From positions 1 to 39,124 of the forward strand of contig CACNRP010000007.1 of NCBI GenBank assembly GCA_902622955.1: DNA of 39,124 nucleotides, written 5' to 3'. Made by a program: the position numbers and the translations under genes. The DNA comes from an uncultured Pelagibacteraceae bacterium. Lineage in GTDB: Bacteria; Pseudomonadota; Alphaproteobacteria; Pelagibacterales; Pelagibacteraceae. Within the stretch, counting starts at the first letter, position 1, and each line of letters opens with the position of its first letter. The notes below the pieces were generated by a model. That model saw nothing but the letters and a program-made list of their open reading frames with translations. It did no database searches and was not told the origin of the DNA. Of this stretch, positions 23,302 through 35,944 are shown one piece after another.

Positions 23302-23979
23302 TTATTGTTGAAAGCTGTACTTTTTCTCTAAATATTTAATCACATTATGAATGATAAAAGTCATGAACAAATAAATTCCACCTGCAACAATGAATACCTC
23401 TATTGGTTTAAAAGTTGTTGAAATTATATATTTAGCAACTCCAGTTAAATCCATCAAGGTAACTGTGCTTGCTAATGAAGTGCCTTTCATCATCAATATG
23501 ATTTCATTTCCGTATGCTGGGAGTGATTGTCGAATAGCAATTGGAATTTGAATTTTATAAAAGATTATCTTATTTGATATGCCTAAACTTTTTCCAGCCT
23601 CAATAATACCTGGTTTTATTGTTTGAAATGCTGATCTTAAAATTTCAGAGGTATATGCACCAGTATTTAAAGTAAAAGCTATAATTGCACACCAATAAGG
23701 TTCTTTTAAAATTACCCATAGAAATGTTGTTCTTAAATATTCAATTTGGCCCAGTCCAAAATAAATTATGAAAATCTGGACCAATAATGGTGTTCCTCTA
23801 AATATATATGAATAGCCATAAGCAAATTTATTGATAAATATATTTTTATTTAATCTCAAAATTGCAAAGAAAAGACCTAGGAATAATCCAAAAAATAATG
23901 ATGCAGATAATAATTTTAAAGTAACTACTGTTGCTCCTAGAAGTTTAGGGAAACTAGTAATCATTAAATCAAAATCCAT
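23302..23979 (-). CDS. Polar amino-acid ABC transporter permease (HisM/OccM-type)
   Basis: A 225-residue inner-membrane permease with about five helices. The family pattern is clear: VTLKLLSASLFFGLFLGLFFAI at the start, FRGTPLLVQIFIIYFGLG, and the EAA loop EAGKSLGISNKIIFYKIQIPIAIRQSLPAYGNE that contacts the ATPase. It starts at the last base of the preceding permease gene (TAATG), so the two form the usual heterodimer. Substrate class by family: arginine, ornithine, histidine, octopine or similar. No ATPase gene follows; the next gene is PhyH. Confidence 0.92.
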   Translation of the reverse strand: MDFDLMITSFPKLLGATVVTLKLLSASLFFGLFLGLFFAILRLNKNIFINKFAYGYSYIFRGTPLLVQIFIIYFGLGQIEYLRTTFLWVILKEPYWCAIIAFTLNTGAYTSEILRSAFQTIKPGIIEAGKSLGISNKIIFYKIQIPIAIRQSLPAYGNEIILMMKGTSLASTVTLMDLTGVAKYIISTTFKPIEVFIVAGGIYLFMTFIIHNVIKYLEKKYSFQQ

Positions 23980-24671
23980 TAATACCCCCTGCTATATTTT
24001 ATTTCTAACTTATTAATTAACCTCATGCTTATATACGTAAGCAACAAATACAAAACTGCTGCAAAAGAATAAAAGAATAATGGATCTCTTGTAGATCCTG
24101 CTGCAATATAAGATTGTCTCATTATTTCAACTAATCCTGTCACTGAAATAAGAGAAGTATCTTTTAAAGTTATTTGCCAAACATTACTCAAATTTGGAAT
24201 AGCAAGTCTTAACATCTGGGGCAGTATTATTTTATAAAATTGCCCAAACTTATTAATTCCAAGAACCTTTGCGGCTTCAAATTGACCTTTGTCTATTGAT
24301 TGAATTGCTCCCCGAAATACTTCTGTTGAATAAGCCCCAGATATAATACCAATAGCCATCGAACCAGTAATAAATGCGTTAATTTCTATGTATTCATAAT
24401 AACCAAAAATAGAAGCTACATACATGATTGCACCGCTTCCCCCAAAGAAGAAAAGGTAAATAACTAATAGTTCAGGTACTCCACGAATAACTGTGGTGTA
24501 AAAATTACCAACTAAATTTAAAGTTTTGTATTTTGAGAGTTTTAAAGGTGTAAAGATTAATGCAAAAAAGAAACCAACCAACATTGCTGTAATTGACACA
24601 GCAATTGTCATTAGGGTTGCGTAAAATAATTCATCACCCCAACCTGTTTTACCAAATGCGAGAAGTTCCAT
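23979..24671 (-). CDS. Polar amino-acid ABC transporter permease (HisQ/OccQ-type)
   Basis: A 230-residue membrane permease, partner of the HisM-type protein. It has ATLMTIAVSITAMLVGFFFALIF, VIRGVPELLVIYLFFFGG and the EAA loop EAAKVLGINKFGQFYKIILPQMLRLAIPNLSN. The ATG at 24671 is only 5 bases downstream of a perfect 12-bp hairpin that occupies the usual Shine-Dalgarno position, so translation initiation is probably weak compared with the binding-protein gene upstream. Confidence 0.92.
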   Translation of the reverse strand: MELLAFGKTGWGDELFYATLMTIAVSITAMLVGFFFALIFTPLKLSKYKTLNLVGNFYTTVIRGVPELLVIYLFFFGGSGAIMYVASIFGYYEYIEINAFITGSMAIGIISGAYSTEVFRGAIQSIDKGQFEAAKVLGINKFGQFYKIILPQMLRLAIPNLSNVWQITLKDTSLISVTGLVEIMRQSYIAAGSTRDPLFFYSFAAVLYLLLTYISMRLINKLEIKYSRGY

Positions 24672-24676
24672 ATAGA

Positions 24677-24703
24677 TTGGCGACTATATATTATAGTCGC
24701 CAA
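24677..24703 (-). repeat. Intercistronic hairpin between binding-protein and permease genes
   Basis: Perfect inverted repeat TTGGCGACTATA / TATAGTCGCCAA (24677-24688 and 24692-24703) with a 3-base loop. It begins 13 bases after the binding-protein stop and ends 5 bases before the permease ATG. There is no good T tract, so it looks like an mRNA 3'-end protecting or processing hairpin rather than a terminator. Confidence 0.75.
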
Positions 24704-24715
24704 ACCTGAAATGAA

Positions 24716-25567
24716 TTACATAGAAGCGTCGAAACCAAAGTGCTTAATAGCAAGTTTGCTAATAATTCCTTGTTTTCTAGCTTTGTTAATTGCTTTATTG
24801 AAATCTTTTAAGATTTTAGCATCTCTTTTTCCAATAGCACTATCGCTAGCTTGTCTTATACCAACACCTACACCATTACCAAATGCACCACCTGAAAAAG
24901 TTGGTCCAACTAACATAACTGGTTTCCCTGATTTGTCTGCATAATCTGTAAAGGCTACTGCTGCAGCTAAAGCTACATCACATCTCCCAGAAGTAAGATC
25001 TAGGTTTACTTCATCTTGAGTTTTGTAGGTTCTAACATTAACACTCCCTACATCGCCTGACTCTAAAAAGTTTTGGTGAATTGTTCCTGTTTGAGTACAA
25101 ACAGTTTTACCAGCAAGTGCTCCTGTTAATGTTTTAAGGGCTTTCTTAACATCTGAACCACCTAATGATAAATTAATACCCTCTGGTGTGTCCATGCTCT
25201 CTAAACTTGAGCCTTTCATTACTGCAAGGGAAGCTACTTCATCTGCATAACCTTGTGAAAAAGTAATTGTTTTTTGTCGTTCAGCAGTAATAGACATTCC
25301 AGCCATTATCGCATCAAACTTTCTCATAACTAATGCTGGAATCATTCCATCCCAGTCTTGCTCTACAATTGTACACTCATATTTCATAATTTTGCAAAGT
25401 TCTTGAGCTAGCTCAACCTCAAAACCAATAAGATTACCTGATGCATCTTTTGAATTCCATGGAGGGTAAGCTCCCTCAGTTCCTATTTTTATTTTTTCAG
25501 CAGAAACATTTCCGATGATAAATAGAGAAGCAAGAACTGTTACAATAGTTTTTTTGAATATATTCAT
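24716..25567 (-). CDS. Polar amino-acid ABC transporter substrate-binding protein
   Basis: A 283-residue periplasmic protein of the HisJ/ArgT/OccT cluster (SBP family 3). The signal peptide (MNIFKKTIVTVLASLFIIGNVSA) ends at about residue 23. The mature start IKIGTEGAYPPWN and LIGFEVELAQELCKIMKYEC are family signatures; DWDGMIPALVMRKFDAIMAGMSIT follows, with the Arg/Asp that usually hold the amino-acid carboxylate and amine. The HisJ-like lobe ends GVGIRQASDSA. A strong AGGAG lies 6 bases before the ATG. It is the first transport gene after the speDE fusion, 58 bases downstream, so the ligand may be basic (ornithine, arginine), which is inference. Confidence 0.93.
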   Translation of the reverse strand: MNIFKKTIVTVLASLFIIGNVSAEKIKIGTEGAYPPWNSKDASGNLIGFEVELAQELCKIMKYECTIVEQDWDGMIPALVMRKFDAIMAGMSITAERQKTITFSQGYADEVASLAVMKGSSLESMDTPEGINLSLGGSDVKKALKTLTGALAGKTVCTQTGTIHQNFLESGDVGSVNVRTYKTQDEVNLDLTSGRCDVALAAAVAFTDYADKSGKPVMLVGPTFSGGAFGNGVGVGIRQASDSAIGKRDAKILKDFNKAINKARKQGIISKLAIKHFGFDASM

Positions 25568-25625: not shown

Positions 25626-26666
25626 TTAATGATTTATTGAGGAAGAAAAATTCCAAGAGCAATCGAAACTTGGTATATAAACTCTTGATAATTTTGCATT
25701 ACCAAAGTTTTGATTAAAAACATTTAACCAGTTTTCAACCTGCTGTGGTTTTTTATCCAGACTTCCTACTTGAGCAGTAATAACGCCTTTAGGTTTTAAA
25801 ATTCTTACCAAGGATTCCATGTTCTTTGCTGCTAAATCAATACAAAATTGATCATCATTAAGGTCAACAAAGATGTGATCGTAAGTATCATCACTTACTG
25901 ATTTAATACTTTTAAATGCATCACCCCATACACATTTTACAGAATTTTTTTCAGTCGCTTTTTTGCCAATATCACCAAGGTATTTATTACATACATCCAC
26001 TACCTCGGAATCTAGTTCAAACCAGTCTATAAAATTAAAATTTTTTGAAATACATTCTCTTGCTACGCCACCATCTCCACCACCTATAATAGCAGCTCTT
26101 TCATTATCTTGATTTAAGTTAAGTCCTGAGCTAACAAAGGTTGAGCTATATAAATGTTCATCCGTGGCAGCTACTTGAATTTCTCCATCAATAAATAAAG
26201 ATTTTCCAAACTGCTCTAAATCTAAAACCTCTATATGCTGACCTGCTTTTGATTTAAAATCCTCTAAAACATCGTTTACAACATATGATTTTTGTAAACC
26301 TGGTGAACTATAGATATCGTGATACAAAGATTTTGTATCTCTATTAAATTCTTTTTTTACTATTCTCTTATGCTCAAATTCTTTTTTTATAATATCTATT
26401 GCAACTGATGGATTAATTTTTCCACAAGTAAAAAAATCAAAACTAATAATTCCTTTTTCTGGAAATGTATGAAAGCTAATGTGACTTTCAGCTAATAATG
26501 CAAGAATTGTAAATCCCTGTGGTTCAAATTTATATTTTGAGATATTAAGTATGGTTACTTTTGCAGCTTTTGCAATTTCATGAATTACCTTTTCAAATAC
26601 CGATGGATCGTATTCTTTTGTGGTTCCAATAATGTCTAGAGTGATATGTTCACCAACTTTAGTCAT
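25626..26666 (-). CDS. Bifunctional AdoMet decarboxylase - spermidine synthase (SpeD-SpeE fusion)
   Basis: A 346-residue fusion. Residues 1-~115 are a bacterial AdoMet decarboxylase: LLAESHISFHTFPE holds the self-cleavage site Glu60/Ser61 (Ser becomes the pyruvoyl cofactor), His66, and Cys81 in DFFTCG. Residues ~120-346 are an aminopropyltransferase: LFIDGEIQVAATDEHLY, the AdoMet-binding AAIIGGGDGGVARE (191-204), and DHIFVDLNDD for the catalytic Asp. Decarboxylated AdoMet made by the first domain can be used by the second to form spermidine and 5'-methylthioadenosine. The usual YHE after DE.. is YSS here. The domains are in one frame with no frameshift. It is coupled to the upstream aldolase gene (TAATG). 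Confidence 0.93.
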   Translation of the reverse strand: MTKVGEHITLDIIGTTKEYDPSVFEKVIHEIAKAAKVTILNISKYKFEPQGFTILALLAESHISFHTFPEKGIISFDFFTCGKINPSVAIDIIKKEFEHKRIVKKEFNRDTKSLYHDIYSSPGLQKSYVVNDVLEDFKSKAGQHIEVLDLEQFGKSLFIDGEIQVAATDEHLYSSTFVSSGLNLNQDNERAAIIGGGDGGVARECISKNFNFIDWFELDSEVVDVCNKYLGDIGKKATEKNSVKCVWGDAFKSIKSVSDDTYDHIFVDLNDDQFCIDLAAKNMESLVRILKPKGVITAQVGSLDKKPQQVENWLNVFNQNFGNAKLSRVYIPSFDCSWNFSSSINH

Positions 26667-27301
26667 TAATTATCCTTTTTATAATTTTTTGACTTGGATA
26701 AAACCTTATGCATTTCTTTAAATGAAAGAATCTTTGGCTTACCCAACTTGAGGCTCGTTATATACTGAAGCGATATATTTTCAACCTCTTCCGCCAACTC
26801 AAAAGCTTTAGCCAAGTTATCTTCAAATGCAATCTGACCGTGATTTGCAATCAAGCAAGCTTTTCTTCCCTTTAAAGCTTTTAAAATATTTTTTGATAAA
26901 TTCCGTGTTCCAAAAGTAGCATATTTTGCACATTTAATGTCATGACCTCCTGCCATTGCCACCATATAGTGAAATGCAGGAATTCCTCTCTTGTGAGTAG
27001 AAACGGCTGTAGCATTTGTTGAGTGCGCATGAACTATTGCTTTTGCTTCTTTCTTAATTCTATAAATATCTTGATGAAATTTCCATTCTGAGGAAGGTAT
27101 TCCTTTTTTTTTATTAAACTTTCCATCAATTGTCACAAAAACAATATCTGCATTTTTTAAGGAAGAATATTTTTTTCCTGATGGGGTAATAAAAAAACCA
27201 TCTTTATGTCGTACTGAAATATTTCCAGACCTTAAAGCAGACAGCTTTCTACTATTTAACATTCTGGAATATTTGATTATTTCACCCTTTATTTTACTCA
27301 T
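26666..27301 (-). CDS. Class II aldolase, L-fuculose-phosphate-aldolase type (probable Ald2 of a methylthioribulose-phosphate/DHAP shunt)
   Basis: A 211-residue zinc aldolase. It closely follows FucA: GNISVRHKDGFFITPSG, PSSEWKFH with the catalytic Glu, VHAHSTNATAVS with two Zn His, FHYMVAMAGGHDIKCAKYATFGT, and ANHGQIA with the third Zn His. The HYM-AAGG and ATFGT stretches are FucA/Ald2 marks and are not found in MtnB dehydratases. FucA-like Ald2 enzymes cleave 5-methylthioribulose-1-phosphate or 5-deoxyribulose-1-phosphate to DHAP and an aldehyde. Coupling by one base to speD-speE, whose by-product is methylthioadenosine, with mtnA and mtnP nearby, argues for that role over fucose use. No fucose genes are present. 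Confidence 0.85.
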   Translation of the reverse strand: MSKIKGEIIKYSRMLNSRKLSALRSGNISVRHKDGFFITPSGKKYSSLKNADIVFVTIDGKFNKKKGIPSSEWKFHQDIYRIKKEAKAIVHAHSTNATAVSTHKRGIPAFHYMVAMAGGHDIKCAKYATFGTRNLSKNILKALKGRKACLIANHGQIAFEDNLAKAFELAEEVENISLQYITSLKLGKPKILSFKEMHKVLSKSKNYKKDN

Positions 27302-27354
27302 TAAAAATATCTTGATTTTAACTTAATTTAAGATCAGACTACATAAAATTTAAA

Positions 27355-28716
27355 ATGACAGATACAATAAAATACTTCCTAGAAGAAAGTAAAATGCCAA
27401 AGACTTGGTATAATATTTGTGCTGATTTACCAAAACCAATGGAACCACCACTTCATCCAGGTACTTTAAAACCAATTGGGCCTGATGATTTAGCTCCTTT
27501 ATTTCCAATGGCTTTAATTGGTCAAGAAGTTTCTCAAGAAAGAGAAATAGAAATACCTGAACCTGTAAGAGAAATTTATAAACAGTGGAGACCATCTCCC
27601 TTATATAGAGCCAGAAAATTAGAAAAATATTTAGATACTCCAGCAAAAATTTATTATAAATATGAGGGTGTAAGCCCATCTGGTAGTCACAAACCTAACA
27701 CAGCTGTAGCACAAGCATTTTATAATAAAGAAGAAGGCACAAAAAAAATAACTACAGAAACTGGTGCTGGTCAATGGGGAACCTCATTAGCATTTGCATG
27801 TAAATTATTTGGAATTGAGTTAGATGTTTACATGGTAAAAGTAAGTTTTGAACAAAAACCATATCGAAAACTAGTCATGCAAACTTACGGCGCCAGATGT
27901 GTTGCAAGTCCGTCTAATGAAACAGACAGTGGAAAAGCAATTTTAGCTAAAGATCCAAACAATACAGGAAGTTTAGGTATAGCTATTTCAGAGGCTGTAG
28001 AAATGGCAGCAAAAAATCCTGATACAAAATATGCATTAGGAAGTGTTTTAAATCATGTGTTAATGCACCAAACTATTGTAGGAAATGAAGCACTACTTCA
28101 AATGGAGATGGCAGATGATTATCCAGATATTTTAGTTGGTTGTACCGGAGGTGGAAGTAATTTTTCAGGCCTTGCAAACCCTTTTTTAGGAAAAAATTTT
28201 AGAGAAGGAAAAAAAACAAGAGTTATTGCATGCGAACCTAAATCTTGCCCAACATTAACAGAGGGTAAATATGTATATGATTTTGGTGATACTGGTAAAT
28301 TAACACCTTTAGTAAAAATGCATACACTTGGTTCACAATTTATACCACCAGCTACACATTCAGGTGGTTTGAGATATCATGGTATGGCACCATTAGTCAG
28401 CCACCTAAAAGAAATTAATGCGCTTGAAGCAAAAGCATACGGTCAAAAAGAATGTTTTGAAGCAGGAGTAAATTTTGCAAGAACAGAAGGTATTGTACCA
28501 GCTCCAGAAGCAACTCATGCAGTTAAAGGTGCGATCGATGCAGCACTAGAATGTAAAAAAAATGGAGAATCTAAAACTATTTTGTTTAATTTATGTGGCC
28601 ATGGTCATTTTGACATGAAAGCGTACGGAGATTATTTTGAAGGTAACCTGGCAGAAGATAAGTTTGATAAAGGAAGTATGGATAAAGCATTAGAAGATCT
28701 TCCAAAAATTGCTTAA
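27355..28716 (+). CDS. trpB2: TrpB2-type tryptophan synthase beta-like PLP enzyme
   Basis: A 453-residue stand-alone beta chain of the TrpB2 group, about 50 residues longer than TrpB1, with the N-terminal extension TWYNICADLPKPMEPPLHP. The PLP Lys is Lys113 in GVSPSGSHKPNTA; ETGAGQWG (135-142) is the carboxylate-binding loop and CTGGGSN binds the PLP phosphate. No trpA is adjacent. TrpB2 proteins join indole and serine, and several prefer O-phospho-L-serine. The next gene, 8 bases downstream, is a DUF1015 protein that may make phosphoserine. Divergent from the aldolase gene across 53 bases. Confidence 0.92.
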   Translation: MTDTIKYFLEESKMPKTWYNICADLPKPMEPPLHPGTLKPIGPDDLAPLFPMALIGQEVSQEREIEIPEPVREIYKQWRPSPLYRARKLEKYLDTPAKIYYKYEGVSPSGSHKPNTAVAQAFYNKEEGTKKITTETGAGQWGTSLAFACKLFGIELDVYMVKVSFEQKPYRKLVMQTYGARCVASPSNETDSGKAILAKDPNNTGSLGIAISEAVEMAAKNPDTKYALGSVLNHVLMHQTIVGNEALLQMEMADDYPDILVGCTGGGSNFSGLANPFLGKNFREGKKTRVIACEPKSCPTLTEGKYVYDFGDTGKLTPLVKMHTLGSQFIPPATHSGGLRYHGMAPLVSHLKEINALEAKAYGQKECFEAGVNFARTEGIVPAPEATHAVKGAIDAALECKKNGESKTILFNLCGHGHFDMKAYGDYFEGNLAEDKFDKGSMDKALEDLPKIA

Positions 28717-28724
28717 TTTTTAGT

Positions 28725-29819
28725 TTGAGTTTAATAAATCCATTTAAAGCTTTAAGACCAACACAAAAACTAGCTAGTAAAATTTCAACACCAAATCCCA
28801 AATATTTTAAAAATTTAAAATCTTATCCAAAGTTTGGTTATTTAAAAATTTTGACAAGTAAAAACTTAACTCAATCAAAAAAATATTTTAAAAGTATGAA
28901 GAATAAAAAAATTATAAATAAGGAAATTAAAGATTGTTACTACATATACAAGATTTCTAATAAAAATCATCAACAAACAGGAATAATTGGTAAAATAGAT
29001 TTAAATAAGTATGATAATAAAAATATTTTAGGTCATGAAGAAACTTTTAAAAAAAGAGTTTCTGAGAGAAAAAAACAGATCTTAAATATTTCAACTCAAA
29101 TTGGTCCAATTTATACAGCTTATAAGCAAAATAAACATCTTCAAAATTTTTTAATAAGAATTACAAAATCAAAGCCAATTTATTCTTTCAGATCATTGGA
29201 TAAATTTAATCATCAGGTGTGGATTGTTGATAAAGAAAAAAATCAAAAATTTTTAAAAAAATTAATTAATAGAGTTAACAAAATATATATTTGTGATGGT
29301 CATCATAGAATCCAAGGTATGATTAATAGTAATAAAAAAATATCACCAATGATAATTGCCTTCCCTCACAATCAAATTCAAATATTAGATTATAACAGAG
29401 TATTAAGAAGTAAGTTACGAATTGAAAAAATTTTTAATATTATCAGTAAAAATTTTATAATTAAAAAAATTAAGAATAATTCTAAAAGTTTAAAAAAAGG
29501 TAATTTGGAAATGTATGTTAACCATCAATGGTATTTACTCAAACAAATTAAAAACAATAATAAATTAGATGTAACAATTCTACATGAAAATATTATTAGT
29601 AAAATAAAAGTTAATAAAATTGATTTTGTTTCTGGAATAAATGGCTCAATTATTTTAAAAAAGTTAGTAAATTCAAAAAAATTTAATATCGCTTTCAAGC
29701 TTTGCCCCACAAATATTTCAAGTGTTATGAGGATTGCTGATAAAAAAAGATTTATGCCTCCAAAATCAACTTGGTTTCATCCAAAGCCTTTAGATGGATT
29801 AATTTGTTCTGAATTATAA
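28725..29819 (+). CDS. DUF1015 family protein, possible serine kinase
   Basis: A 364-residue very basic protein with the DUF1015 marks: INPFKALRPT at the N-terminus, GHEETF (103-108), the ICDGHHRIQG motif (189-198), and MPPKSTWFHPKPLDGL near the C-terminus. DUF1015 belongs to the ParB-like fold group that includes free-serine kinases (SerK, SbnI). It may therefore convert serine to O-phosphoserine, which is inference. The start is TTG at 28725, 8 bases after trpB2; no ATG fits the conserved N-terminus. Lys/Asn/Ile content is extreme even for this window. It overlaps the asparaginase gene 3' end by 6 bases. Confidence 0.85.
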   Translation: MSLINPFKALRPTQKLASKISTPNPKYFKNLKSYPKFGYLKILTSKNLTQSKKYFKSMKNKKIINKEIKDCYYIYKISNKNHQQTGIIGKIDLNKYDNKNILGHEETFKKRVSERKKQILNISTQIGPIYTAYKQNKHLQNFLIRITKSKPIYSFRSLDKFNHQVWIVDKEKNQKFLKKLINRVNKIYICDGHHRIQGMINSNKKISPMIIAFPHNQIQILDYNRVLRSKLRIEKIFNIISKNFIIKKIKNNSKSLKKGNLEMYVNHQWYLLKQIKNNNKLDVTILHENIISKIKVNKIDFVSGINGSIILKKLVNSKKFNIAFKLCPTNISSVMRIADKKRFMPPKSTWFHPKPLDGLICSEL

Positions 29820-30791
29820 CGTGTATCTTAATTTTCCAATTATTTGACCTGTGGAATTTGCAACTTCGCTAGATTTAATCTTTGTTAATTCATTTGCATC
29901 AATAATATTTAGCTCAGAAATTAATCCTGCTATTGCAGTTTCAGCTGCTCTCGCAGCGCCATCTAAGATTTTTACTACAAGTGCAGATTTAATTTCAGGT
30001 ATTAAAGCTAAAAATACTCCTTCAGCACCATTTTTAAAAAATATTCTTCCTTTTGAAAGTTTTGTTAAGATACAATTAGTACTATTTGTGCCTCCAGTTA
30101 TCTCAGGAAAATTTATACATGAGTTAAAAATTTTTTTTGCTATATCTGTATTTTCATTTAATTTTTTATCGTCTGTTAATCGAGACGCTGCTAATGCAAA
30201 TTTTTTTAAAGGCATCAAGGGATTTGGAAGAGTACAGCCGTCAATTCCAATATTTTTTATTTTATAATCTGATAAATCTTCAATTAATTTTATTAAATCC
30301 TTTTGTAAAGGATGCGTTTTTTCATGATAATTTTCTAAAGTTAAATTTTTATGTTTACATACTGCAAGATGTCCACAATGTTTTCCCGAACAATTGTGAT
30401 AAATTCTTCTTTTATATTTATTTTCTAATTTTTCTTTAAATTTATCCTCTAAATTCCATGGCCAATCATGACCACACGAAAGATTTTCTTCTTTAATATT
30501 AATTTTTGTTAACCAATTAGAAATTATCTCTTGATGAAATTTTTCAGCATGATGTGATGCTGTTGTAATTGCTATTTGTTCTTCAGTGAGTTTCATAGAA
30601 TCTGCTATGCCGTCTTTATAAAGATTTAGAGTTTGAATTGGTTTTAATGCTGATCTTGGATAAATATTTATGTCAGAATTTCCCCACTCTTTTAAAATAT
30701 CTCCTGATGAATTGATTAATACTGCAACCCCTTGATGAAAACTTTCTGTCTCTCCACTTCGTGTAACTTCAACCATTCTTACAGATTCCAT
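29814..30791 (-). CDS. Asparaginase, rhizobial (ReAV-like, class 3) type
   Basis: A 325-residue amidohydrolase of the family first known from Rhizobium etli, unrelated in active site to E. coli AnsA/AnsB. Key residues are all visible: the Ser47-x-x-Lys50 pair in YPRSALKP, Ser79 in TTASHHAE, and the metal-binding Cys134/Lys137 in HNCSGKHCG with Cys186 in DGCTLPNP. It would release ammonia and aspartate from asparagine in the cytoplasm. It starts 4 bases after mtnA and is the last gene of the mtnP-hydrolase-mtnA run; its link to the methylthio pathway is unclear. Confidence 0.9.
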   Translation of the reverse strand: MESVRMVEVTRSGETESFHQGVAVLINSSGDILKEWGNSDINIYPRSALKPIQTLNLYKDGIADSMKLTEEQIAITTASHHAEKFHQEIISNWLTKINIKEENLSCGHDWPWNLEDKFKEKLENKYKRRIYHNCSGKHCGHLAVCKHKNLTLENYHEKTHPLQKDLIKLIEDLSDYKIKNIGIDGCTLPNPLMPLKKFALAASRLTDDKKLNENTDIAKKIFNSCINFPEITGGTNSTNCILTKLSKGRIFFKNGAEGVFLALIPEIKSALVVKILDGAARAAETAIAGLISELNIIDANELTKIKSSEVANSTGQIIGKLRYTL

Positions 30792-30795
30792 ATAT

Positions 30796-31869
30796 TTATT
30801 TATTAAATAATTTTTTTAAACTTTCAGTTGAAGCTTCAGAAATCCCTTTTTCTGTAATTAAACCGGTTACGTATTTTGCAGGAGTTACATCAAAAGCTAA
30901 ATTCATTGCTTTACTTTTGCTAGGATAAATTAAAATTTTCTTAATTTCATTATTTTCATCAACTCCTTCTACGTGAGATAATTCTTCAGAGTTTCTTTCC
31001 TCAATTGGAATATCTTTCGCATCTTTAATATCCCAATCAATTGTTGAGCTTGGAAGGGCCACATAAAAGGGAACATTGTTATCATGGGCAGCTAAAGCTT
31101 TTAGATAAGTACCAATTTTATTACAAACATCTCCATTGGATAAAGTTCTATCAGTACCAACAATGCACATATCAACCTCACCTCTTTGCATTAAAATTCC
31201 ACCTGTATTATCAGCAATAATAGTATTTGGAATTTCTTCTTCATTAAGTTCATATGATGTTAAATTTGCACCTTGGTTTCTTGGTCTTGTTTCGTCTACC
31301 CATACGTGAACTGGAATACCTTTTCTATGTGCATGATAGATTGGCGATGTAGCTGTACCCCAATTAATAGTCGCTAACCAACCTGCATTGCAATGAGTTA
31401 AAATATTTACAGTATCTTTTTTTTTGTTATAAATTTCCTCAATTATTCTTAATCCATTAATACCTATATTTTCACAAAACTTTTCATCTTCATCACATAT
31501 TTCTTTAGCTTCTTTTAAAGCTATATCTAAAATTTGATCACTATTTATGCCTGATAATTTTTTCATCATACGATCAACTGCCCATTTTAAATTAATTGCA
31601 GTGGGTCTTGATTGAATTAATTCATTTGAACTTTTTTTTATAAATTCTAGATCTTTATTTTCTTGAACTGCTAAAACTAGACCATAAGCAGCTGTTCCTC
31701 CTATTAGAGGTGCGCCTCTTACCTCCATTATTTTAATGGCATTTATTGCATCATTTACAGTTTTAAGTTCTTTAATTACAAATTGGTGAGGAAGTTTTGT
31801 TTGATCAATAATTTTAACACCATTATTTTCAAACCAAATTGTTCGATATTCTTTTCCATCAATTTTCAT
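30796..31869 (-). CDS. mtnA: S-methyl-5-thioribose-1-phosphate isomerase
   Basis: A 357-residue aldose-ketose isomerase that converts methylthioribose-1-phosphate (or 5-deoxyribose-1-phosphate) to the ribulose form. It has MEVRGAPLIGGTAAYG, the catalytic Cys160 in LTHCNAGWLAT, Asp240 in CIVGTDRTLSNGDVCNKIGT, and DETRPRNQGA; Cys160 and Asp240 fall at the same numbers as in the B. subtilis enzyme. The later motifs separate it from eIF2B-type regulators. It overlaps the upstream hydrolase stop by one base. Its product is the expected substrate of the FucA-like aldolase about 3.5 kb away. Confidence 0.95.
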   Translation of the reverse strand: MKIDGKEYRTIWFENNGVKIIDQTKLPHQFVIKELKTVNDAINAIKIMEVRGAPLIGGTAAYGLVLAVQENKDLEFIKKSSNELIQSRPTAINLKWAVDRMMKKLSGINSDQILDIALKEAKEICDEDEKFCENIGINGLRIIEEIYNKKKDTVNILTHCNAGWLATINWGTATSPIYHAHRKGIPVHVWVDETRPRNQGANLTSYELNEEEIPNTIIADNTGGILMQRGEVDMCIVGTDRTLSNGDVCNKIGTYLKALAAHDNNVPFYVALPSSTIDWDIKDAKDIPIEERNSEELSHVEGVDENNEIKKILIYPSKSKAMNLAFDVTPAKYVTGLITEKGISEASTESLKKLFNK

Positions 31870-32795
31870 TAAATTTTTGACTCTATAAAATTTAAAATTG
31901 TTGGATTAAAATATTGAAAACAATCTCCTAAAGCCATGTAGTGTCCATTTTTAACTTTTTCTTTCCATCTTTCTCCATTATTTATTCCAATTCTACTGCA
32001 ATTTTTATTGTTAATTTTAAAATCTTCGCTAATTATTATTCTTTTTACTCCTGGTATTTCTTCTACCCAATCAGACAACAATCCATCATAAGGATCTTTT
32101 GGATGAGTAAAAACTAAGACAGGTAGATTTTTTGCTTTACCAATATCTTTAATTTGATTTTCTCTTAAAACTGCTGGCCCAGGTTTTTTCTTTTTAAAAT
32201 TTTCTAAAGCTTTTTCTATTCCAACTTTTTTAACTTTATATTTTTTGGATAATTCACCATAACAAGCATGGTGAGTAGAAATTCCTCCAGCAACCTTGTC
32301 AGGATATTTTGAAATCAACATCATGGTTGCCCATCCTCCACATGATTGCCCTGCTATAAATATTTGGTTATTTGGTATACCCAATTCTATGAATTTTTTA
32401 ATTAAATCTAAATTAGCATTAACTCTTTTATCTAATTTTGTTATTCCTTTATATGGAAAATCAAATTTTTTTTTCCAAAGTCTTTTCCAATCATCGCCAG
32501 CTAAATGATCTGTACAAAAGCTATATACTAAAACCTCTTTATCTTTAACTTTTTTTCCTGACAAAGAGGCAATATTGCGAATATTATTTTTCCATACACA
32601 GTTTTTTGAGGGTTTATCATGATCATCTTGGCCATGATTATATATTATTAGAATTTTATTTTTTGGGTCTTTTACCTCAAAATTAGTATTTAATTTCCAC
32701 TCACCACTAAGAAAACCACTTTTAAGCAATTTGTCTGCATGTAAAGGGGTAGAAAATAAAAAAATAATTAGAAAACTAAATAAATATTTTTTCAT
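31869..32795 (-). CDS. Secreted alpha/beta-hydrolase-like protein
   Basis: A 308-residue protein with a signal peptide (MKKYLFSFLIIFLFSTPLHA, cleavage at about residue 20) and an alpha/beta hydrolase fold. The nucleophile elbow is AGQSCGG with Ser151; ILIIYNHG (about 48-55) is the oxyanion strand, an acidic residue follows in THPKDPYDGL, and the catalytic His is probably in NGHYMALGD. Several Cys (66, 94, 152 and later) could form periplasmic disulfides. Substrate unknown. It overlaps mtnP by four bases and mtnA by one, so it is in the middle of that operon, although the mtn enzymes are cytoplasmic. Confidence 0.82.
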   Translation of the reverse strand: MKKYLFSFLIIFLFSTPLHADKLLKSGFLSGEWKLNTNFEVKDPKNKILIIYNHGQDDHDKPSKNCVWKNNIRNIASLSGKKVKDKEVLVYSFCTDHLAGDDWKRLWKKKFDFPYKGITKLDKRVNANLDLIKKFIELGIPNNQIFIAGQSCGGWATMMLISKYPDKVAGGISTHHACYGELSKKYKVKKVGIEKALENFKKKKPGPAVLRENQIKDIGKAKNLPVLVFTHPKDPYDGLLSDWVEEIPGVKRIIISEDFKINNKNCSRIGINNGERWKEKVKNGHYMALGDCFQYFNPTILNFIESKI

Positions 32796-33664
32796 TTGTT
32801 AAGCGCCCTTCCCGCAATTGTTTTTAATTTATCTTTGGTTTTTTGAGTTCGTTTTTCAGGAGCAGTAATTATTGCAACATCTAAACAATTGTTTGCTGGA
32901 TCATTTGGATTAATATGATCTTCAAAATTATCAATCAAATTTTTAATCATAACTTTAGCTTTTTCAGCATTACCTAATAATACTTTAACTACTTGTTGAA
33001 CGTCAACGTTTTCATGATCTGGATGCCAACAATCAAAATCTGTAACCATTGAAACGGATGCATATCTAATTTCAGCTTCTCTTGCTAATTTTGCTTCAGG
33101 CATATTCGTCATACCGATTACATCAGCTTTCCAAGATCTATATAAATTTGACTCTGCTAGTGTAGAAAATTGAGGGCCCTCCATGACAATATAAGTTCCA
33201 TTTCTTTGATAATCTATATTTGATTTTTTAATTGCATCTTCGCATGCATTCATCAATCCATTAGAAGTTGGATGTGCCATCGATACATGGGCAACTATTT
33301 CATCATCAAAAAATGTTTTTATTCTGGCAAAAGTTCTATCTATAAATTGATCAACAATTACAAATTTACCCGGAGGTAGCTCCTCTTTTAAAGAACCTAC
33401 TGCTGAAACTGATACTATATCCGTTACGCCTAATTGCTTAAGTGCATCTATATTTGCCCTAAAATTAATATTTGTAGGAGAAACAAAATGTCCTCGTCCA
33501 TGTCTTGGTAAAAAATAAACTTCCTTGCCATTATATTTAGTTTTTAAAATGTGATCAGATGGTTTCCCCCATGGTGTTTGTAAATCAAGTAACTCTCTAT
33601 CTTTAAACTCCTCAACATCATAAAGACCACTACCACCAATAATTGCTAATTTATTTGTTGTCAT
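32792..33664 (-). CDS. mtnP: S-methyl-5'-thioadenosine phosphorylase
   Basis: A 290-residue phosphorylase that splits 5'-methylthioadenosine (or 5'-deoxyadenosine) to adenine and the ribose-1-phosphate derivative. The motifs GGSGLYDVEEF, FLPRHGRGHF, SAVGSLKEEL and IVMEGPQFSTLAES are of the MTAP/PNP trimeric family. TDFDCW (208-213) has the Asp pair that in MTAP recognises the adenine amino group; guanosine-type PNPs have Asn there. It starts 41 bases from the divergent apt gene, which would recycle its adenine product, and is the first gene of the mtnP-hydrolase-mtnA-asparaginase operon. Confidence 0.95.
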   Translation of the reverse strand: MTTNKLAIIGGSGLYDVEEFKDRELLDLQTPWGKPSDHILKTKYNGKEVYFLPRHGRGHFVSPTNINFRANIDALKQLGVTDIVSVSAVGSLKEELPPGKFVIVDQFIDRTFARIKTFFDDEIVAHVSMAHPTSNGLMNACEDAIKKSNIDYQRNGTYIVMEGPQFSTLAESNLYRSWKADVIGMTNMPEAKLAREAEIRYASVSMVTDFDCWHPDHENVDVQQVVKVLLGNAEKAKVMIKNLIDNFEDHINPNDPANNCLDVAIITAPEKRTQKTKDKLKTIAGRALNK

Positions 33665-33705
33665 AATTTTAAATTTATTTATTTATACTTTTATAATTAA
33701 CTATT

Positions 33706-34233
33706 ATGAACTTAAAAGATTATATTAGATCAATTCCTGACTATCCAAAAAAAGGCATTTTATTTAGAGATATTACTACTTTAATAAAAGATGAAAATGC
33801 TTTTGCAGAAACTATTAATCAAATTGTAGAGAGATCAAAAAAATACAATTTTACAAAAATTGCAGCGATTGAATCAAGAGGCTTTGTGTTTGCATCTGCA
33901 GTTTCATATCTTTTAAATAAACCTTTTATAATGCTAAGAAAAAAAAATAAGCTGCCAGCAGATGTTCACTCTATAGATTTTGAGCTTGAGTATGGTACAG
34001 CGACTATTGAGGTTCATAAAGATTCAATTAACGAAGAGGACTCAGTTTTAATAGTTGATGACCTTGTTGCAACTGGAGGTACAGCTGAAGCAGCTGCGAA
34101 ATTAATTGAAATTTCAAAAGGTAAAGTTGCAGCATTTGTGTTTGTAATAAATCTCTTTGATTTAGGTGGGTCAGATAATTTGATCAAAAACAATTATAAA
34201 GTAGAGAATTTAATCGAATTTCCAGGACATTAA
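33706..34233 (+). CDS. apt: Adenine phosphoribosyltransferase
   Basis: A 175-residue type I phosphoribosyltransferase forming AMP from adenine and PRPP. The opening IRSIPDYPKKGILFRDITTLIKD is a strong Apt signature. AAIESRGFVFASAVSYLLNKPFIMLRKKNKLP follows, and the PRPP loop is VLIVDDLVATGGTAEAA (about residues 118-134). Normal length. Divergent from mtnP by 41 bases, which couples it to adenine released from methylthioadenosine. Confidence 0.96.
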   Translation: MNLKDYIRSIPDYPKKGILFRDITTLIKDENAFAETINQIVERSKKYNFTKIAAIESRGFVFASAVSYLLNKPFIMLRKKNKLPADVHSIDFELEYGTATIEVHKDSINEEDSVLIVDDLVATGGTAEAAAKLIEISKGKVAAFVFVINLFDLGGSDNLIKNNYKVENLIEFPGH

Positions 34234-35867: not shown

Positions 35868-35944
35868 TGGTAGCGGGAAGTGGGATCGAACCACTGACCT
35901 CAGGCTTATGAGTCCTGCGCTCTAACCAACTGAGCTACCCCGCC
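35868..35944 (-). tRNA. tRNA-Met (CAT), elongator type
   Basis: A 77-base cloverleaf on the minus strand: acceptor GGCGGGG/TCCCGCT (with G-U at both ends), D-arm GCTC-AGTTGGTTA-GAGC, anticodon loop CTCATAA with CAT at 35908-35910, T-arm AGTGG-TTCGATC-CCACT, discriminator A, and genome-encoded CCA. The last anticodon-stem pair is A-G, a mismatch at 31-39. It lacks the GGG/CCC anticodon-stem pairs of the initiator tRNA; a lysidine-type tRNA-Ile (CAT) is less likely. Confidence 0.93.

Follow-up and report, generated by a model that had tools for sequence, protein, structure and literature searches.

We analysed a 39,124-nucleotide stretch of DNA (the window) from an uncultured SAR11 bacterium, whose nearest named loci are from Pelagibacteraceae, with aldolase identity of up to 94%. 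Five genes at positions 25626–34233, speDE, ald, mtnA, mtnP and apt, very probably make up a unit for the aldolytic salvage of 5′-methylthioadenosine (MTA), that is, a dihydroxyacetone phosphate (DHAP) shunt of the MtnP type. Across Pelagibacterales, two distant aldolases exclude one another at a single slot in this unit. The reading draws on gene identities, synteny, co-occurrence across genomes, the mutual exclusion of the two aldolases and a search that found no classical salvage genes, all of which come directly from sequence. How MTA is handled bears on whether polyamine synthesis costs the SAR11 cell reduced sulfur, and the mutual exclusion at one slot makes both the pathway and the fate of its aldehyde directly testable.

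The sequence-only reading of this stretch had named the five genes, and each is an intact reading frame whose family scores agree with that naming. Family calls were based on NCBIfam scores against curated cut-offs, plus Pfam. speDE, an S-adenosylmethionine decarboxylase-spermidine synthase fusion (25626–26666, minus strand), scored 99.7 against the SpeD model TIGR03330 (cut-off 75.65); its SpeE half passed Pfam Spermine_synth (90.4, cut-off 22.9) and reached no full-length SpeE equivalog cut-off. A multidomain SpeE fusion of the SpeD-SpeE type has already been described in SAR11 (PMC8437039). The neighbouring ald (26666–27301, minus strand) encodes a FucA/Ald2-like class II aldolase (PF00596, 168.3 bits). 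The 5-methylthioribose-1-phosphate isomerase gene mtnA (30796–31869, minus strand) scored 421.4 against TIGR00512 (cut-off 279), and the MTA phosphorylase gene mtnP (32792–33664, minus strand) passed both NF006492 (439.8, cut-off 437) and TIGR01694 (308.4, cut-off 274.85). On the plus strand, the adenine phosphoribosyltransferase gene apt (33706–34233) scored 198.9 against TIGR01090 (cut-off 185.85).

In the proposed pathway, SpeDE would make MTA, and MtnP would phosphorolyse it to adenine and methylthioribose-1-phosphate. Apt would return the adenine to AMP, while MtnA would convert methylthioribose-1-phosphate to methylthioribulose-1-phosphate, which the class II aldolase would cleave to DHAP and 2-methylthioacetaldehyde. 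In SAR11 this last step would fall either to a compact Ald2-like enzyme, as in the window, or to an aldolase-short-chain dehydrogenase fusion. The same three enzymes, MtnP, MtnA and the aldolase, probably also process 5′-deoxyadenosine, to DHAP and acetaldehyde. Deletion and complementation in Rhodopseudomonas palustris showed that MtnP, MtnA and Ald2 take part in a DHAP-shunt route (PMC5893883). The DHAP shunt with return of adenine through Apt, as the sequence-only reading had proposed, has good support up to the formation of DHAP and an aldehyde; the aldolase's substrate, the flux and the aldehyde's later course are what we infer.

Occurrence of the genes was counted in 397 Pelagibacterales genomes, mostly drafts, at E-value limits of 1e-60 for mtnA, 1e-50 for the compact aldolase and 1e-100 for the fusion. 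mtnA was found in 286 of these genomes, the compact aldolase in 234 and the fusion in 57; no genome had both aldolases. Exactly one type was present in 283 of the 286 mtnA genomes (227 compact, 56 fusion), leaving 3 with neither. Among the 111 genomes in which mtnA was not found, 103 had neither aldolase, 7 had the compact enzyme and 1 had the fusion. The link between mtnA and the aldolase is not due to chance.

Synteny was scored at 80 loci on genome contigs, taking as denominators the loci with enough flanking sequence. In 75 of the 76 testable loci, mtnA shared the strand of ald and preceded it (at most 60 bp apart in 54), and speDE lay directly downstream of ald in 75/76, the exceptions being L132, where mtnA was not found, and L138, where speDE was not found in a short tail. 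apt was divergent from mtnP and within 120 bp of it in 57 of the 58 loci long enough, and 40/68 loci had an mtnP-mtnA gap of at most 60 bp with no insert. The place of ald beside speDE, the putative source of MTA, in 75 of 76 loci speaks against the idea that the main role of the locus is disposal of 5′-deoxyadenosine from radical-SAM (S-adenosylmethionine) enzymes, with MTA a side substrate. The E. coli shunt takes both substrates (PMC10986504 and PMC12632272), which favours that idea, but we regard it as improbable.

The compact aldolase was compared with named families. Its scores and conserved residues, metal-binding His and catalytic Glu among them, place it with the class II aldolases of FucA/Ald2 type and not with MtnB. 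Its nearest models are those of FucA (PRK08087, 211.1 against a cut-off of 264), and the closest solved structures are of E. coli FucA (E = 1.4e-51), as would suit an ordinary L-fuculose-1-phosphate (sugar) aldolase that lies near mtn genes by chance. However, the enzyme missed the FucA equivalog TIGR01086 (192 against 400.25), as did an E. coli Ald2 homologue (317.6), its presence follows mtnA over the 397 genomes, its gene sits between mtnA and speDE, and a different aldolase occupies the same slot in relatives. An ordinary sugar aldolase is therefore very improbable. The Ald2 homologue used here is the E. coli S88 aldolase, so named in PMC6302742. The matches listed for the window aldolase included no model under the name Ald2.

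When aligned to FucA and Ald2 of E. coli, the window aldolase retains the GN, PSSEW and HxH motifs and the later HG histidine; we take these residues to have roles in binding phosphate, in acid-base chemistry and in binding zinc. The active-site residues are retained in both the compact and the fused aldolase. In a weakly resolved tree of compact aldolases (support of 35 for SAR11 as a single group), the SAR11 enzymes fell within an mtnA-linked alphaproteobacterial set of 18 rows (97%), made up of 12 labelled SAR11, of which one, L138, is titled only Alphaproteobacteria, and 6 others. Pelagibacterales also have class II aldolase/adducin-family members that are unrelated to the shunt aldolase, some 245 aa long and of the PRK07044 or PRK07490 type (L017, L028 and L341), and a plain Pfam search could confuse the two.

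Membership of the same superfamily, and a match of 67.2 bits to the MtnB model TIGR03328, might suggest that the protein is instead the MtnB dehydratase of a cut-down methionine salvage pathway. That score is far under the cut-off of 137.05 and resembles the 68.5 of the E. coli S88 Ald2 homologue, and a RhaEW-like aldolase as its substitute in relatives fits cleavage, not dehydration. The partner enzymes were likewise not found above cut-off in the genomes searched, as set out below, and we consider an MtnB identity extremely improbable.

The window's own genome is 66.66% complete, so absences were judged over 61 related genomes, namely that genome, 36 others of its genus and 24 that belong to a different family in the order; completeness is at least 90% for 18 of the 61. 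mtnP was present in 29 of them. MtnD (PF03079) and RuBisCO-like protein (PF00016) were each found in 0/61. MtnC (TIGR01691) was above cut-off in none, with weak matches in 19 (21.4 bits in the window's genome), and MtnK likewise in none, with weak matches in 23. Nitrogenase-like proteins of the methylthio-alkane reductase type, which the sequence-only reading had suggested looking for, were above cut-off in 0/61 and weakly matched in 34. We treated the matches below cut-off to MtnK, MtnC and nitrogenase-like models as other families or chance. As for MtnB, models other than MtnB gave the better match for the window aldolase and for 6 further aldolase-family proteins and 4 fusions from these genomes, in a scan of part of the PF00596 members; wherever the MtnB model was listed, none of these proteins reached its cut-off. 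Across 14 known genomes, positive controls exceeded the cut-offs for MtnD (2), MtnK (2), MtnC (1), RuBisCO (5) and nitrogenase-like proteins (4), so the searches were able to detect these families.

Three other routes were rejected on these results: universal methionine salvage through MtnBCD (no MtnD, no MtnC above cut-off and no MtnB among the proteins scanned), the MTA-isoprenoid shunt through a RuBisCO-like protein, and a route through MtnK. In agreement with the expectation that classical methionine salvage genes are lacking, mtnB, mtnC and mtnD, whose discovery elsewhere would have told against the shunt, were not found in the 61 genomes, where MtnC had only weak matches below cut-off and MtnB was sought in part of the aldolase-family members.

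Five of the 61 relatives had longer reading frames, of 677–684 aa, bearing the aldolase domain. These encode the fusion, in which an aldolase is joined to a short-chain dehydrogenase (677 aa). The fusion is flanked by mtnA and speDE in G013 and G027 and by a TrpB-like gene and speDE in G024, and it adjoins speDE only in G023; in G041, from another family, it follows apt-mtnP-mtnA colinearly. Among the 57 genomes that bear the fusion, the 30 best loci were inspected, all from the window's genus; speDE was on one side in 30/30, with mtnA (24) or a TrpB-like gene (6) on the other. We rejected a RhaEW identity for the relatives' fusion on account of these flanks and of the scores of the four fusions scanned, which passed NF006192 (796–905, cut-off 639) but missed TIGR02632 (RhaD_aldol-ADH; 438–458 against 567.75).

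Aldolase type changed repeatedly across trees of the neighbouring genes. Parsimony gave 13 changes on the speDE tree and 12 on the mtnA tree, of which well-supported branches force 6 and 3, respectively, in trees built from thinned sets (85 speDE rows out of 108 distinct labelled ones, and 77 mtnA rows out of 100 labelled); recombination of the neighbouring genes may have contributed. Thus the slot has changed its occupant on more than one occasion, be it through gene exchange or recombination. That the step is an aldol cleavage is best evidenced by the interchange, beside mtnA and speDE, of two distant enzymes with a common aldolase domain.

Several observations weigh against reading the locus as an MTA salvage unit. 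Eight of the 111 genomes without mtnA have an aldolase, 3 of the 286 with mtnA have neither, and the Fisher p of 3 × 10−81 for the mtnA-aldolase association is uncorrected for relatedness. The window aldolase was under cut-off for each of the best 25 named models listed, PRK08087 included, unlike the E. coli Ald2 homologue, which passes PRK08087 (365.6 against 264). FucA Phe206 is not retained in the aligned SAR11 copies, and the two E. coli references pair together in the tree, apart from the SAR11 enzymes. speDE was absent from the 14 kb read at the mtnP-mtnA-fusion locus of G041, so the link to speDE is not order-wide. Lastly, mtnP-mtnA and ald-speDE do not form one operon in the window, because divergent inserts part them.

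We surveyed aldolases beside mtnA outside SAR11 in 124 of the other 140 alphaproteobacterial genomes with mtnA, leaving out 4 Pelagibacterales genomes. At these 124 loci the compact aldolase was seen in 57 and the fusion (at least 40% identity) in 25, both in 0 and neither in 42; 13 of these 42 have less than 3 kb on one side, and the sequence ends inside 4 of the 25 fusions. Of the 82 aldolase genes, 79 share the strand of mtnA and lie no more than 300 bp away from it, and 14 of the 124 loci, counted by eye, carry mtnP-apt-mtnA-ald in a row. In a tree of 36 rows, which took the 21 full-length members of the 25, the nine SAR11 fusions formed one clade (100/100). A long branch set apart two fusions from rhamnose loci, a limited test with only two such rows. 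For two fusions on Rhizobiaceae plasmids, the incomplete gene table of the stretch shown lists no mtn gene, and the wider fusion family may therefore not be solely linked to mtnA. At L335, an Agrobacterium plasmid, a fusion, a sugar-type ABC (ATP-binding cassette) transporter and mtnK-mtnA occur together; this set has the look of a system for importing methylthioribose or 5-deoxyribose.

The fate of the aldehyde may differ between the two aldolases. RhaEW uses NAD+ to oxidise its aldehyde, with no reductase activity seen (PMC3870299). By analogy, the fusion would yield methylthioacetate, which weakens any general claim of volatile sulfur release. Such release, proposed in the sequence-only reading, was not supported, since nitrogenase-like proteins were found only below cut-off and the aldehyde may be oxidised wherever a lineage carries the fused dehydrogenase. 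It is still conceivable, as R. palustris makes methanethiol aerobically (PMC5893883).

A related alternative is that the methylthio group is recovered as methanethiol into methionine, as in R. palustris. In its favour, SAR11 HTCC1062 cannot use sulfate and condenses methanethiol to methionine via MetY or MetC, according to PMC5069961, and R. palustris, whose products are 2-(methylthio)ethanol and, aerobically, methanethiol, provides an aerobic precedent. Against it, no nitrogenase-like protein was above cut-off in the 61 genomes, PMC5893883 assigns no enzymes to the final aerobic release of methanethiol, and the fused dehydrogenase, carried by 56 of the 286 genomes with mtnA, points to a different fate in those. 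It is a possibility that we lean against.

Tentatively, and with doubt slightly outweighing confidence, we propose that the swappable slot sets the fate of sulfur in SAR11 and other Alphaproteobacteria. A compact aldolase would release free 2-methylthioacetaldehyde, open to reduction and to methanethiol recovery, whereas the fusion would immediately convert it by oxidation into methylthioacetate (and likewise turn acetaldehyde into acetate), giving no volatile product, and the slot would have been swapped repeatedly within SAR11.

The salvage genes of the window lie in two minus-strand clusters. One is tightly packed and consists of mtnP, an alpha/beta hydrolase-like gene, mtnA and an asparaginase gene; the other comprises ald and speDE, which have one base in common (ald's last coordinate base is speDE's first). 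They are separated by plus-strand genes for a TrpB-like and a DUF1015 protein. The hydrolase-like insert between mtnP and mtnA (31869–32795, minus strand) had weak Abhydrolase_2 (below gathering) and esterase matches. Between mtnA and ald lie the asparaginase-II-like gene (29814–30791, minus strand; PF06089, 298.5 bits), the DUF1015 gene (28725–29819, plus strand; PF06245, 163.7 bits) and the gene for a TrpB-like pyridoxal-phosphate enzyme, divergent from ald (27355–28716, plus strand; NF009057, 730.8 against a cut-off of 366). These four inserts are variable cargo outside the core, gained and lost among relatives. Both gaps (27355–30791 and 31869–32795 in the window) gather variable genes, which in relatives include those for a PhyH dioxygenase, a sulfatase and others.

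A transporter solute-binding gene directly followed speDE in 68 of 73 testable loci; in the window it encodes a family-3 solute-binding protein of an ABC transporter (24716–25567, minus strand; PF00497, 112.9 bits). With two ABC permease genes it spans 23302–25567, an arrangement present after speDE in 63 of the 68 loci long enough, and no ATPase gene was seen beside the permeases in the window. These transporter genes may import a substrate related to the pathway. Searching the window with Rfam at its gathering thresholds returned a tRNA (35871–35944) as the sole match and no riboswitch, and the viral contigs scanned held no relative of the aldolase.

Individual genomes and loci showed further variation. 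G012 (L341), a one-contig genome of the window's genus rated 100% complete, had no match to mtnA, mtnP, the compact aldolase or the fusion. In G001 (60% complete; L345, G001:C3), one contig carries mtnP and, about 8 kb away, a compact ald truncated where the contig ends; mtnA was not found in this genome, a possible case of gene loss. In a distant family, an agmatine-deiminase-like gene (L142:8244–9383; above cut-off for PF04371, below it for TIGR03380) follows mtnP-mtnA-fusion, possibly another link to polyamines.

The DHAP shunt itself is already known, Alphaproteobacteria included (PMC5893883 and PMC6302742). In the open-licence literature we found no description of the shunt in SAR11 or of an mtnA-linked aldolase-dehydrogenase fusion, earlier mentions being possible. 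Thus the core pathway is known and, as far as we searched, the swappable aldolase slot is new.

The sequence-only reading had likened the locus to the Ald2 shunt of Rhodospirillum and of E. coli strains. The MtnP-MtnA-aldolase type stands, but the likeness to E. coli is only partial, as that shunt uses Pfs and MtnK instead of MtnP (PMC10986504). Universal methionine salvage (MtnBCD) and the MTA-isoprenoid shunt (RuBisCO-like protein) both have MtnA in common with the SAR11 locus, and the latter also has MtnP; unlike these routes, SAR11 had no MtnD, no RuBisCO-like protein and no MtnC above cut-off in the 61 genomes. The shunt of some extraintestinal E. coli (Pfs-MtnK-MtnA-Ald2) has MtnA and a FucA-like aldolase in common with SAR11, clustered in S88 as mtnK-mtnA-aldolase, whereas SAR11 uses MtnP and had no MtnK above cut-off in the same genomes. 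The shunt of Rhodospirillum rubrum and R. palustris (MtnP-MtnA-Ald2) has the same three enzymes, with MtnP rather than Pfs and MtnK, a likeness of enzyme set and not of compared sequences. Unlike it, the SAR11 version is tied to a speDE fusion, and in SAR11 a RuBisCO-like protein was not found and no nitrogenase-like protein was above cut-off. RhaEW, the rhamnulose-1-phosphate aldolase/lactaldehyde dehydrogenase, has the same domain order as the SAR11 fusion, and its aldolase and short-chain dehydrogenase motifs align with it. RhaEW orthologs are said always to lie within rha loci (PMC3870299), whereas the SAR11 fusions sit beside mtn genes or speDE.

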